Part shown: in pieces, positions 28,182 through 38,788 of the stretch | Position numbering within the stretch: the stretch's first letter is position 1 | Layout of the letters: each line of letters opens with the position of its first letter | Source: Alphaproteobacteria bacterium | GTDB taxonomy: Bacteria; Pseudomonadota; Alphaproteobacteria; Sphingomonadales; Sphingomonadaceae | Direction: 5' to 3' | Assembly (NCBI GenBank): GCA_005883305.1 | Contig: VBAC01000001.1 | Span: 930,001-994,000 of the forward strand | Length of the DNA: 64,000 nt | Notes under the pieces: model-generated | The model's input: the letters and a program-made list of their open reading frames with translations, nothing else | Database searches by the model: none | Told to the model about the DNA's origin: nothing | Made by a program: the position numbers and the translations under genes

Positions 28182-28304
28182 AGGAATGTTCGTCTGGACC
28201 GGGGTTGCGAGCCCACAGCGTTCGTTCTATGTTCCCTTCATGGAATGTCTCCGTCCGCGCACGATCGGCTCACTGGATCGATGCGCCGGCTGGCTCGAGA
28301 AGTT

Positions 28305-28417: not shown

Positions 28418-31099
28418 ATGACCTCGACCAACGACATCCGGCGCGCCTTCCTCGATTATTTCGGCCGCGAGGGGCACCAGGTCGTGCCCTCGGCGCCGCT
28501 CGTCCCGCAGAACGATCCGACGTTGATGTTCGTCAACGCCGGCATGGTGCCGTTCAAGAACGTGTTCACCGGGCTCGAGACCCGGCCATATTCGACCGCC
28601 GCTTCCAGCCAAAAGTGCGTACGCGCCGGCGGCAAGCACAACGATCTCGACAATGTCGGCTACACCGCGCGGCACCTGACCTTCTTCGAGATGCTCGGCA
28701 ATTTCTCGTTCGGCGATTATTTCAAGGAGCGGGCGATCGACCTCGCCTGGACCCTTCTCACCAAAGAGTTCGGCCTGTCGCCCGACCGGCTGACGGCGAC
28801 CGTCTATCACACCGACGACGAGGCCTGGGACCTGTGGAAGAAGATCGCCGGCCTGCCCGACGAGCGGATCATCCGGATCCCGACCAAGGACAATTTCTGG
28901 GCGATGGGCGACAATGGCCCGTGCGGGCCCTGCTCGGAGATCTTCTTCGATCACGGCCCCGCGATCCCCGGCGGTCCGCCCGGCAGCCCGAACGAGGGTG
29001 GCGACCGCTTCGTCGAGGTCTGGAACCTCGTCTTCATGCAGTACGAGCAGGAAGCGAACGAGATCGTCCGCGACCTGCCGAGGCCCTCGATCGACACCGG
29101 CATGGGCCTGGAGCGAATCTCGACCGTGCTCCAGGGCGTTCACAGCGTGTTCGAAACCAATACGTTTCGCGAGCTGATCGGCGCCTCAGCCGAGTTGACG
29201 AAGACGGACGCGGGGCAAGCCAGCCACAAGGTGATCGCCGATCACCTGCGCTCGTCCTGCTTCCTGGTCGGCGACGGCGTCCTTCCGGCGAACGAGGGGC
29301 GGGGCTATGTGCTTCGGCGAATCATGCGCCGGGCGATGCGCCACGCCCATTTGCTCGGCGCCGCCGAGCCCCTGATGCACCGGCTCGTGCCGAGCCTCGT
29401 CGCGGAGATGGGCGCCGCATATCCCGATCTGGTGCGCGCCCAGCCGCTGATCGAGGAGACCCTGAAGCTCGAGGAAACGCGCTTCCGCCAGACCCTCGCC
29501 AACGGCCTGAGACTGCTCGACGAGGCGACCGCGGCGATGAAGCCGGGCGAGACCCTGCCGGGCGCGACCGCGTTCAAGCTCTACGACACGTACGGCTTCC
29601 CCTACGACCTTACCGAGGACGCGCTCCGCGCGCAGGGCTTCGGAGTCGACCGCGCGGGCTTCGACAGCGCGATGGCCGAGCAGAAGGCCGCCGCCCGCGC
29701 GGCCTGGAAGGGCTCGGGGGCGAAGGCGAGCGAGGACATCTGGTTCGACATCGCCGAGGAGAAGGGCGCGACCGAGTTCACCGGCTATCTCGGCCATGAC
29801 GGCGAGGGCGAGGTCGTGGCGATCGTCAAGGACGGCGCTCGCGTCGAGCGCGCCGGCGCCGGCGACAGGGTGACGATCCTGACCAACCAGACGCCCTTCT
29901 ACGGCGAGAGCGGCGGGCAGATCGGCGACACGGGAAAGATCATATCCGATAAGGGCCTGGACGCCGATGTTGAGGAAACGTCCAAGCCGCTGGGCAAGCT
30001 CCACGCACATCAAGCGGCGGTCAAGGCGGGCGAGGTTTCGGTCGGCGACGCGGTCCAGCTCCACGTCGATGCCGAGCGGCGCTCGAAGATCCGCGCCAAT
30101 CACAGCGCCACCCATTTGCTCCACGCCGCGCTTCGCCGCCGCCTGGGCGATCACGTGACCCAGAAGGGCAGCCTCGTCGCCCCCGACTATTTCCGCTTCG
30201 ACTTCTCGCACAACAAGCCGATGACCCGCGAGGAGATCGAAACCGTCGAGGCCGACGTCAATCGCCACATTCGCGAGAACCGGCCGGTCGGCACGCGCCT
30301 GATGAGCATGGATGACGCGATCTCGTCCGGCGCAATGGCCCTGTTCGGGGAGAAATATGGCGACGAGGTCCGCGTCCTCTCGATGGGGGACGAGGAGGAG
30401 CGCGCATATTCCGTCGAGCTTTGCGGCGGCACCCACGTCAATGCGCTCGGCGACATCCAGCTGCTCAAGATCACCTCAGAAAGCGCGGTCGCCTCGGGGG
30501 TGCGCCGGATCGAGGCGCTGACCGGCGAGGCGGCGCGGGCCTGGCTCACCGCGCGCGAGGACAAGCTCAAGGAGGCCGCCGCCTCGCTCAAGGCCTCGCC
30601 CGAGGAGGTTCCCGCGCGAGTGGCCGCACTGGTCGAGGAGCGCCGCCGGCTCGAGCGCGAGCTGGCGGAGGCGAAAAAAACGATCGCCCTCTCTGCGCAA
30701 GATCTCACCACGGGCTCGCCCGAAATCGGCACAGCCAAGCTTGCTACGGGACCCGAAAAGGTCGGTGATGTCTTCTTCACGCCGCTGCTGCTCAATGACT
30801 TTGATCCCAAGGAGCTGCGCAGCCTTGTCGATGAAAAAAAACGCTCGATGGGTACTGGGGTGGCCGCGATCATTTCCGTGCTCGGCGGACGTGCAACCGT
30901 AGCGGTTGGGGTTACCGACGACCTTACTGACCGCTTCAATGCGGTCGATCTCGTCCGCAGGGCGGTGGAAGCGGTCGGCGGCCAGGGCGGCGGCGGGCGT
31001 CCGGACATGGCCCAGGGCGGCGGGCCGGACGGCGGCAAGGCGGCGGAGGCATTGGAGGCGGTCAAGGCAGCGTTGGCGGACCAGCCGGCCGAAGCCTAG
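28418..31099 (+). CDS. alaS: Alanyl-tRNA synthetase
   Basis: 893 residues. The class II catalytic domain starts [21 protein letters not shown], with motif 2 [15 protein letters not shown] and motif 3 [13 protein letters not shown]. The editing domain has the zinc-binding [13 protein letters not shown] and [11 protein letters not shown] motifs, and the C-terminal domain ends with the [16 protein letters not shown] loop. It charges tRNA-Ala and clears mischarged serine or glycine. The stretch at 30670-30850 is locally A-rich, with runs of seven and eight A, unlike the rest of the gene. An unusual inverted repeat precedes it. Confidence 0.97.
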
Positions 31100-36486: not shown

Positions 36487-37356
36487 GTGAAGGACGATCG
36501 ACGAGCCGAGCCCCGGCGGGGCATTCCGCTGCGGGCCGTCGTCCCCAACGCCGTCACCGCGCTCGCCCTTTGCTCGGGCCTCTCCGCGATTCGGTTCGCC
36601 ATCGAAGGCAGCTGGTGGCAGGCAGTCTCCTTCATCGGAGTCGCCGCGGTGCTCGACGGAATGGACGGGCGCATCGCCCGCTCGCTTCGCGCGCAAACCA
36701 AGTTCGGCGCCGAGCTCGATTCGCTGTCGGACGTGGTCGCCTTCGGAGCCGCCCCGGCGATCACCGTCTATCTTTGGGCGCTGCAGAACTGGCCTTGGCC
36801 GCGGCCAGGCTGGCTGTTTGCCCTGGCCTATGCCGTGTGCATGGCGCTGCGCCTCGCCCGCTTCAATGCGCGGATCGACTCCGAGGACCAGCCGCACAAG
36901 TCCGCCGGCTTCCTCACGGGCGTTCCCGCCCCGGCGGGCGCCGCCGTCATTTTGCTGCCGATCCTGCTCTGGCTGGCGAGCGACGGCGAATGGGCCTGGC
37001 TCAAGGACTATCGGCTCGTCGCGCCGTGGACCGCGTTCGCGGCCTTCATGGTCATCTCCAGCGTTGCGACCTTCTCGCTCGGCTCGTTCAGGCTGCGCCG
37101 CAACGTGCGGCTAGAGGCGATCGGCCTCATCGCTCTGATCGGCGCGGCACTGTTCACCGTGCCTTGGCAGACGCTGGCCGTGCTGGTGTTGATCTATTTG
37201 CTGCTGATTCCGGTCAGCATGGCGCGGTATGCGCGAGTCAAACGGCAGCGCGCGCTCGCGGCGCGCGAGGCCGAGCCGATCCAGCCGCCCTTGCCCTTGG
37301 CGGGGGAGCGCCCCGCAACGCGGCGACGATCGCGTCCCAATGCGCCTTCACAGTGA
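36487..37356 (+). CDS. pssA: CDP-diacylglycerol--serine O-phosphatidyltransferase
   Basis: 289 residues of the CDP-alcohol phosphotransferase family. The signature DG-x2-AR-x8-G-x3-D-x3-D is met exactly by DGRIARSLRAQ then GAELDSLSD. About eight hydrophobic segments follow. GTG start: the ATG at 36473 lies in another frame and stops after five codons. It makes phosphatidylserine, the substrate of the upstream psd product. The last 40 residues are basic and low in complexity, and overlap an antisense small gene. Confidence 0.92.
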   Translation: MKDDRRAEPRRGIPLRAVVPNAVTALALCSGLSAIRFAIEGSWWQAVSFIGVAAVLDGMDGRIARSLRAQTKFGAELDSLSDVVAFGAAPAITVYLWALQNWPWPRPGWLFALAYAVCMALRLARFNARIDSEDQPHKSAGFLTGVPAPAGAAVILLPILLWLASDGEWAWLKDYRLVAPWTAFAAFMVISSVATFSLGSFRLRRNVRLEAIGLIALIGAALFTVPWQTLAVLVLIYLLLIPVSMARYARVKRQRALAAREAEPIQPPLPLAGERPATRRRSRPNAPSQ

Positions 37357-37423
37357 TTTCGAGAACAAGGCCCAGCGCGATGAGCAGGCCGATGAAAAAG
37401 GTGATGGAGAGCATTTGAGCCAC
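37238..37423 (-). CDS. Small single-helix membrane protein with SOS and DnaA box upstream
   Basis: 61 residues. The first 35 form a strong membrane helix (ITFFIGLLIALGLVLEITV) followed by KAHWDAIVAALRG; the rest is a basic Pro/Arg/Ala tail antisense to the end of pssA, so the real protein may end earlier in spirit. The GTG at 37423 was chosen because AAGGGG lies 8 bases upstream; an ATG three codons later lacks that spacing. Upstream are a perfect DnaA box (37439-37447) and a perfect LexA box (37489-37503). No homologue is recognised from sequence alone; a SidA-like division regulator is a hypothesis. Confidence 0.5.
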   Translation of the reverse strand: MAQMLSITFFIGLLIALGLVLEITVKAHWDAIVAALRGAPPPRARAAGSARPRAPRARAAV

Positions 37424-37438
37424 AGCTTATCCCCTTAC

Positions 37439-37447
37439 TTATCCACA
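37439..37447 (+). promoter_or_regulatory. DnaA box
   Basis: TTATCCACA, identical to the strongest E. coli DnaA site. It is 15 bases upstream of the GTG of the small membrane gene; a weaker relative (CTTATCCCC) lies at 37426-37434. A 9-base AT-rich match by chance is unlikely here, but a single box is not proof of binding. Confidence 0.5.
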
Positions 37448-37488
37448 TAACGGACGAGGACGGTGTTTGTTCCCCGCGCAGTCGTATT

Positions 37489-37503
37489 GTTCTCTATTTG
37501 TTC
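37489..37503 (+). promoter_or_regulatory. LexA (SOS) box, GTTC-N7-GTTC
   Basis: GTTCTCTATTTGTTC is a perfect direct-repeat alphaproteobacterial LexA site. It lies between the divergent small membrane gene (65 bases away) and the small secreted gene (92 bases away). Proximity favours the former; either or both may be SOS-controlled. Confidence 0.75.
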
Positions 37504-37595
37504 TATTGTCAACGTGCGAATGCAAACGCGAGAGGCGCCGCCGTGGCTTCTTCGGCGGGCCGGTTCGTGATAGGATCTGGGGCGAGGAGGTCACC

Positions 37596-37880
37596 ATGCG
37601 CAGGACCGCCGTATACGCCTTTGCCCTGACCGCCTTTGCCAGCGGTATCGCGGCCAAAGCCCAGTCGGAAACCGCGGCCAGCCCGTCCGGGATTTCACCG
37701 AGCAACAATGGCACCGGGCCGGACCGCCGCAACAAGATGGTGTGCAGAAGCCAGGGCGATTCGTCGTCCAGGCTCCGCCGCCAGCGAGTTTGCACCACGC
37801 AGGCCGAGTGGGACGAGCAGCGCCGGACCGAGCGGCAGAATGTCGAGCGCGCGCAGACCAACAGGATCTGGCCGGGATAG
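37596..37880 (+). CDS. Small secreted protein with paired-Cys RVC motif
   Basis: 94 residues. Signal peptide MRRTAVYAFALTAFASGIAAKAQ; the mature part has a pattern VCRSQGDSSSRLRRQRVCTTQAEW, two cysteines 15 residues apart, then a basic-acidic helix (DEQRRTERQNVER). A second protein in this window (54625-54876) has the same VC-x14-VC-x2-A-x-W arrangement. GAGGAGG is 6-12 bases before the ATG. No function known; a disulphide-bonded secreted protein is inferred. Confidence 0.65.
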   Translation: MRRTAVYAFALTAFASGIAAKAQSETAASPSGISPSNNGTGPDRRNKMVCRSQGDSSSRLRRQRVCTTQAEWDEQRRTERQNVERAQTNRIWPG

Positions 37881-38029: not shown

Positions 38030-38788
38030 ATGGCGTCCACCGACGTCACCATGCAGCAATTGCTCGAGGCCGGAGCGCATTTCGGCCACCAGACCCACCG
38101 CTGGAACCCCAAGATGAAGCCGTACATCTTCGGCGAGCGCAACGGGGTGCACATCATCGACCTGTCGCAGACCGTGCCGCTCTTCGCGCGCGCGCTCGAC
38201 TTCGTCCGCCAGACCGCGGCGGCCGGCGGCAAGGTGCTGTTCGTCGGCACCAAGCGCCAGGCGCAGGATCCGATCGCCGAGGCTGCGCGCCGCTCGGGCC
38301 AGCATTTCGTCAACCACCGCTGGCTGGGCGGAATGCTCACCAACTGGAAGACCATCTCCAACTCGATCAGGCGCTTCAAGAGCCTCGAGGAGCAGCTCGC
38401 CGGCGACACCGCGGGCCTGACCAAGAAGGAGGTCCTCCAGCTGACCCGCGAGCGCGACAAGCTCGAGCTTTCGCTCGGCGGCATCCGCGACATGGGCGGA
38501 ATCCCGGACGTGATGTTCGTGATCGACGCCAACAAGGAAGAGCTGGCGATCAAGGAAGCGAACGTGCTCGGAATCCCGGTCGTCGCGATCCTCGATTCGA
38601 ACGTCAGCCCGCAGGGCATCGCCTTCCCGGTTCCGGGCAATGACGACGCCAGCCGCGCCATCCGCCTCTACACCGATGCGATCGCCGATGCGGTGCTCGC
38701 CGGCAAGCAGGGCGGCGCCCAGGCCCGCGGAGTCGACATCGGCGCGCAGGACGAGCCCCCGGCCGAGGCCGCGCTAGCCGAGGCTTAA
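38030..38788 (+). CDS. rpsB: Small ribosomal subunit protein uS2
   Basis: 252 residues. Starts at ATG with GGAAGGAG 6 bases upstream; longer reading to 37934 has no support. The S2 pattern is complete ([38 protein letters not shown], then [15 protein letters not shown]). The C-terminal tail is acidic. It is followed by tsf, the usual rpsB-tsf pair, separated by a 226 base gap with a large palindrome. Confidence 0.98.

Follow-up and report, generated by a model that had tools for sequence, protein, structure and literature searches.

A conserved one-helix membrane protein gene behind a LexA box in sphingomonads, a candidate SidA-like inhibitor of division

SOS-induced small membrane inhibitors are a known kind of protein, and a member in the sphingomonads, a large group studied for biodegradation, would be a new one, none having come up for that group in searches of open-licence PMC. 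In Caulobacter crescentus, the SOS response induces SidA, a 29-residue inhibitor located in the inner membrane and interacting with FtsW, while DidA, also of Caulobacter, acts on FtsN and is induced by DriD, not LexA (both from passages of PMC4211646). In other phyla, too, the late steps of division are the target of small SOS membrane inhibitors (PMC13396833 and PMC6851548). The helix of Bacillus YneA binds FtsW TM7; from YneA and from low-confidence models of SidA, SosA (Staphylococcus), and ChiZ (Mycobacterium), a 2026 paper (PMC13396833) proposes that helices of this kind contact FtsW TM7, and it also reports that the YneA helix alone localises and does not block division.

The sphingomonad gene described here resembles SidA in encoding a tiny, one-helix alphaproteobacterial membrane protein behind a GTTC-N7-GTTC LexA box, and in one genome (G006) its product has just 28 residues. 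It differs in that 79 of 81 members are 60–87 aa long, with a tail behind the helix (overall range 28–100 aa), and in being convergent with pssA; the likeness is one of size, topology, and control. DidA shares with it the character of a small, damage-linked membrane protein, but is DriD-induced, where the sphingomonad gene has a LexA box. YneA, SosA, and ChiZ are likewise DNA-damage-induced small membrane proteins; YneA and SosA, however, have an extracellular C-terminal part (portions of PMC13396833; PMC6851548) and ChiZ a YneA-like layout (portions of PMC13396833), whereas in the sphingomonad protein the tail would lie inside, and searches for a domain gave none. Searches of open-licence PMC gave, among the matches listed, no title or abstract about this gene, and no paper there joining a DnaA box, a LexA box, and a division inhibitor.

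The gene lies in a 64,000-nt stretch of an alphaproteobacterial assembly (GCA_005883305.1, contig VBAC01000001.1; hereafter the window; Table 1). An initial annotation of this stretch had described a 61-codon leftward frame, with a GTG start at good Shine-Dalgarno spacing, behind exact TTATCCACA and GTTC-N7-GTTC sites. The frame and start are as it described them, with AGGGGA 7–12 nt before the GTG, and both sites were found to be exact at the positions given. Positions −11 to −8, in the Shine-Dalgarno-like run, are strongly conserved among 24 leaders of the genus. The convergent neighbor is taken, from its sequence, to be pssA, and the divergent neighbor on the opposite flank is presumably rpsB. 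A leader mini-frame (GTG GAT …) was considered and dropped for want of a conserved stop. A small plus-strand frame (37596–37880) with a signal-peptide-like start (MRRTAVYAFALTAFASGIAAKAQS) also lies between the tiny gene and rpsB; no match was listed for it at E < 0.01 in 16 other loci.

Table 1. Features of the tiny-gene locus (window coordinates).
Feature	Position	Strand	Remarks
Tiny membrane-protein gene	37238..37423	minus	GTG start at the 37423 end, 61 aa
Codons 2–27, single membrane helix	37343..37420	minus	AlphaFold2 helix and hydropathy
Codons 29–37, short helix behind the membrane segment	37313..37339	minus	AlphaFold2; A35 and L36 conserved
Portion overlapping the pssA 3′ end in antisense	37238..37356	minus	Arg/Pro-rich tail, RAAV end, stop
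AAGGGGA, Shine-Dalgarno-like	37430..37436	minus	7–13 nt ahead of the GTG
DnaA-box-like element, TGTGGATAA (TTATCCACA on plus)	37439..37447	minus	spans −24 to −16
LexA box, GAACAAATAGAGAAC in gene direction	37489..37503	minus	exact GTTC-N7-GTTC
TTGACA, −35-like hexamer	37507..37512	minus	directly upstream of LexA box
pssA-like gene, convergent neighbor	36487..37356	plus	name presumed
rpsB, divergent neighbor, opposite flank	38030..38788	plus	name presumed

By themselves, the motifs in the window say little. GTTC-N7-GTTC occurs there four times against 1.18 expected, and 3 of 100 shuffles reach four; in the window's genome as a whole (G000) it is in excess, found 59 times compared with 31 for the reversed pattern. 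TTATCCACA has its sole exact copy in the window in front of the tiny gene, and genome-wide (G000) it shows no excess (10 copies vs. 11 of the reversed pattern). Since neither motif is much beyond chance in the window alone, the case is built on comparison with related genomes.

Relatives of the gene were found at 82 loci in 22 genera, all of one family in GTDB; the genus of the window is that of Allosphingosinicella vermicomposti. Of these loci, 23 belong to the genus and 58 to 21 other genera, 81 in all; the remaining one, coding for the 28-aa version in G006, was missed by every profile and added afterwards. A search with the single sequence matched 16 of 60 relatives, all in the window's genus. 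A 15-row profile matched 23 of the 26 genus genomes, one of these matches (G021) lying away from pssA and being removed; in the family, it matched 53 of 298 genomes at E ≤ 0.01, seven of these partial and set aside. With a 24-row profile, 27 of 196 genomes of the order matched, every one within the family; in the class as a whole, the same profile (A2) had matches in 3 of 385 genomes; two of these belong to the family, and the third match is weak, with an internal stop, leaving no convincing relative outside the family among those 385. The 245 family genomes with no profile match were left out of the inspection of pssA flanks. From these distributions, the gene may often be lost, or may evolve too fast for profiles to see. 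Nine unfetched family matches to the 15-row profile were also left out (the second matches of G316 and G122, and those of G103, G211, G220, G227, G232, G275, and G300); all are partial, and several of them contain stops or lie within very long frames. So were the matches away from pssA (L013, L016/L184, L182, L183, L185–L188, G015:C7, and G016:C1:10303). Three of the latter (L184, L185, and L187) encode relatives of the tiny protein with a similar end (PERILSVRTCAPADLPYVARRM in two of them) and have no upstream LexA box, and could possibly be a second, non-SOS branch; L183 and L013 are further relatives in such positions.

The annotation's expectation that the first 38 codons would be conserved beside pssA across sphingomonads is borne out by the profile matches and by pssA itself, which lies downstream in convergent orientation at 81 of the 82 loci (L005, the exception, is truncated where its contig stops). 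A divergent rpsB was seen upstream at 73 of the 82; the stretch fetched for the other nine did not show it. At one locus (L180, in G002) psd stands between the tiny gene and pssA, and the tiny gene is convergent with psd. In the genus, the gene was not found in G004, G017, or G021; pssA has no match in the first two of these and a weak one in G021.

The N-terminal codons evolve as protein. In pairs from the same genus differing at 5–30% of sites, pS exceeds pN over codons 2–22 in 25 of 25 cases (mean pS 0.39, pN 0.14) and over codons 2–38 in 22 of 22, although the pairs are not independent, since genera are shared among them. By this sequence evidence the 61-codon frame is a real gene. A chance frame with chance motifs would agree with the near-chance level of the single motifs in the window, but the retention in 22 genera and the coding selection refute it, leaving it a probability close to nil.

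In the window, codons 23 to 61 are antisense to the 3′ end of pssA, an overlap of 119 nt with the stop included. In the 15 loci examined for this, the two genes always overlap, by 32–170 nt and in an identical relative frame; at L006 the overlap starts a few codons earlier in the tiny gene than in the window. Because it is antisense to pssA, the tail of the tiny protein, with its RAA(A/V) end, must be partly dictated by that gene. The RAAA end had been considered as independent evidence in the form of a C-terminal degron; this was dropped, RAAA being the antisense of a conserved KVRRQRA in pssA.

This arrangement allows for a reading in which the transcript, not the protein, is what matters, with SOS-induced antisense transcription into the pssA 3′ end lowering phospholipid synthesis. 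The overlap in 15 of 15 loci and the nearly universal convergence would suit it. It would not account for protein-level selection on codons 2–22, which in the window lie outside the overlap (25 of 25 pairs, with the overlap measured in 15 loci), nor for a hydrophobic helix in 82 of 82 proteins, and in G006 the coding frames end at about the same place; altogether it seems very improbable that the transcript is the functional product.

A perfect GAAC-N7-GAAC occurs no more than 200 nt upstream of the gene at 79 of 81 loci, with all 22 genera represented, the loci having been picked by protein and not by LexA box. The annotation's own check, conservation of the box in relatives, is passed: it is present in all 58 loci of other genera and in 21 of 23 of the genus (22 of 24 counting G006). 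The background for this motif, taken from both strands of the same loci with the 300 nt upstream of the tiny gene excluded, is four copies in 232,232 nt. The box has been kept despite a variable distance from the start codon, from −40 (L280) to −192 (L275). Low base conservation around it comes from an ungapped, start-anchored table and was not used as evidence. GTTCN7GTTC is the stated LexA consensus for Caulobacter (in part of PMC12700426). With the box in 79 of 81 loci and four copies in 232 kb elsewhere, the upstream sequences make SOS control of the tiny gene very likely. In several genera there are loci with two such boxes upstream, e.g., L023, L024, L026, and L029 (g95), L041, and L251 and L257 (g106).

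The two exceptions, G002 and G010, have lost the LexA box, which counts against strict SOS control in those genomes. Joint loss of the box and of lexA itself was considered and rejected: lexA (TIGR00498) was found in 25 of the 26 genus genomes, 23 of them over the cut-off, and both G002 and G010 retain it.

In 59 of the 79 loci with a box, TTGA[CT] or TTGTC lies within 14 nt upstream of it. Since a TTGAC-type hexamer stands just upstream, the LexA box would fill the spacer between −35 and −10. A strict promoter scan found no promoter in the window, and the −10 (CAATAC) is weak. Twenty-one of the 59 genomic GTTC-N7-GTTC sites of G000 were viewed. The site is doubled before lexA, whose LexA domains were confirmed by Pfam, and single before a uvrA-like and an imuA-like frame (the latter had no Pfam match). 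Most of the 21 lie within or close to frames that have no known part in the SOS response, many of them inside long frames. Elsewhere in the window, another exact GTTC-N7-GTTC (GTTCGTTCTATGTTC) is found at 28220–28234, between genes we take from their sequences to be EF-G-like and alaS (start at 28418).

All 82 proteins have one hydrophobic window (hydropathy > 1.6), none has K or R before it, and the net charge after it averages +6, with a minimum of 0. By the positive-inside rule the positively charged side of a membrane protein is inside, so the tail is predicted to be inside and the N-terminus outside. AlphaFold2, given the 15-row alignment, predicts helices at residues 2–27 and 29–37 (mean pLDDT 80, pTM 0.46), with ten-residue blocks at pLDDT 93–98 in the first helix and low confidence in the tail (block pLDDT 47–57, residues 41–61). 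F9 and F10 are invariant in the same genus alignment. No family match to the tiny protein was found in Pfam, NCBIfam, or PHROGs. The 28-residue G006 product retains the GTG start, the ribosome site, and the LexA box, and there the frames of the tiny gene and of pssA stop close together.

The reading preferred here is of a sphingomonad inner-membrane protein with one helix, repressed by LexA and serving as a SidA-like SOS inhibitor of division. By analogy with SidA we put its chances at about even, and the division role, drawn from size, topology, and control, is a matter of similar balance. Under this proposal LexA, bound between the −35 and −10 of the promoter, would keep the tiny gene silent; RecA would trigger LexA cleavage and the tiny protein would be made; its helix would insert beside the septal wall synthase (FtsW/FtsI/FtsN) and stop septal wall synthesis, as SidA does through FtsW (PMC4211646); and division would be held until repair is done. 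The steps we infer are that damaged cells induce the gene, that the protein inserts with an internal tail, that it targets FtsW, and that division is arrested. A helix-only product such as that of G006 need not be an inhibitor, because the YneA helix alone localises without blocking division (sections of PMC13396833). If the proposal is correct, it names an SOS division brake of the sphingomonads and provides an alphaproteobacterial case beyond Caulobacter of SOS inhibitors acting in the membrane on FtsW, with the natural 28-residue variant as a minimal test object.

In the window's genus the leader has one more feature, the DnaA-box-like element of Table 1. Of 24 genus loci, 18 carry TGTGGA[T/C]AA at −24 or −25: fourteen have the exact TGTGGATAA at −24, one has TGTGGACAA at that same position, and three have TGTGGACAA at −25; the other six lack the element. 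In other genera it occurs in 2 of 58 loci, at −67 and −60, and the rest of the genus loci, 71,066 nt, contains no further copy. Its distance from the start codon is fixed, while the LexA box of the same loci ranges from −80 to −97; it is kept in G002 and G010 despite their loss of the box (at L180, in G002, as TGTGGACAA). It lies inside the expected transcript, downstream of the expected transcription start. The initial annotation had seen in the two sites a joint LexA/DnaA promoter. In that form the proposal lacks support: TTATCCACA is nearly confined to the genus, keeps a fixed distance to the start, and persists in the two genomes without a LexA box. Judged by its position, an element tied to the start codon could be a roadblock for a DNA-binding protein, or could act at the RNA level.

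In folds of single sequences, TGTGGAYAA is mostly paired in 14 of 18 leaders. No consensus fold was obtained from 24 start-anchored leaders, although these were ungapped and a shifted structure could be missed, and Rfam gave no match in 951 bases.

The folds bear on a different reading of the protein, as an SOS-induced membrane toxin whose helix would lower the membrane potential and slow the cell, leading to dormancy rather than division arrest. TisB of E. coli, a very short SOS-induced membrane protein, is the model for this. A one-helix protein of 28–100 aa behind a LexA box is compatible with such a toxin, and an element paired in most single-sequence folds makes control through the leader possible. 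The sphingomonad gene showed neither a consensus leader fold (24 leaders) nor an Rfam match, and 79 of 81 members are longer, at 60–87 aa, with a tail following the helix. We regard a toxin of this kind as unlikely.

If the element is read as a DnaA box, the gene may be compared with that for Sda of Bacillus subtilis, a small checkpoint protein that DnaA is reported to control; Sda, however, is a soluble kinase inhibitor of sporulation, and unrelated. G000 has ten copies of TTATCCACA. One copy precedes dnaB by 61 nt, another a DHH-family (RecJ-like) gene by 71 nt, and a third dciA by 64 nt, this last lying within the opening codons of the longest mutY frame; a fourth falls where sspB begins, some 40 nt ahead of the likely ATG (these four copies are at C1 1661234, 2071942, 2085128, and 2150189, in that order). 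A further copy is 251 nt before mraZ and another is near an mraZ paralogue, which has MraZ likeness only, with no Pfam match; three others are tied to no replication gene. In the genus, 14 of 26 genomes have TTATCCACA before dnaB. The annotation's DnaA reading is plausible, the same 9-mer preceding dnaB, dciA, and mraZ; DnaA as the reader of the genus element is a tentative assignment, to which we give somewhat less than an even chance.

About as much can be said for the alternative that TGTGGATAA is a translation or RNA element, or the site of some other regulator (e.g., MraZ), and not a DnaA box, which falls just short of an even chance. The element keeps to −24/−25 relative to the start codon, whereas the LexA box varies in position; together with the ribosome site it forms two 12-nt repeats (TGTGGATAAnnn-AGGGGATAAnnn); its frequent pairing in single-sequence folds makes an RNA role possible; and TTATCCACA is not in genomic excess. 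MraZ binds its own promoter via TGGG-type repeats, and the mraZ upstream region of the genus is also filled with TTATCCAC and CCCC repeats. Against these points, the copies before dnaB, dciA, the DHH-family gene, and mraZ in G000 form a replication set, as would suit DnaA; TGTGGACAA, the variant that recurs, is also a known DnaA-box form; and the absence of a consensus fold of the leaders speaks against an RNA element. On the DnaA reading, TGTGGATAA would have been added in Allosphingosinicella in the leader, just before the ribosome site, and might, as a low-confidence guess, damp expression during normal replication.

The mraZ gene heads the division and cell-wall cluster, and its upstream region in the genus carries a similar pair of sites. 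TTATCCACA was found at −243 to −275 upstream of mraZ in 25 of 26 genus loci fetched, the 26th (L234) being the paralogue. Each of the 25 has GAAC-N7-GAA[C/A/T] in the next 60 nt, often as GAACAAACCACGAAT, the last base of which departs from the LexA box. There is no copy of TTATCCACA in 50,241 nt downstream of the mraZ starts, a control that is mostly coding DNA and covers the 9-mer alone, the looser GAAC-N7-GAA[C/A/T] motif being without a control.

These pairs allow a broader, and doubtful, reading for Allosphingosinicella, in which the division brake and the division cluster would share a two-input logic, with LexA-type and DnaA-type sites paired at the tiny gene and about 250 nt before mraZ, forming one circuit that reads damage and initiation and sets division. 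The DnaA site in the leader would then be a roadblock tied to the supply of DnaA, and the inhibitor a new, family-wide checkpoint protein of sphingomonads, reducible to a 28-residue helix. Should the division-inhibitor proposal hold, the DnaA-like and LexA-type sites at the tiny gene and at mraZ would make a link between initiation, damage, and division directly testable.

The mraZ site pair is at 1521–1544 of L189 (G000:C1:244620–244643), and likewise present in L209–L233. Many of the mraZ loci also have further TGTTATCCAC and GGCATGAAATCCCC repeats, closer to mraZ.
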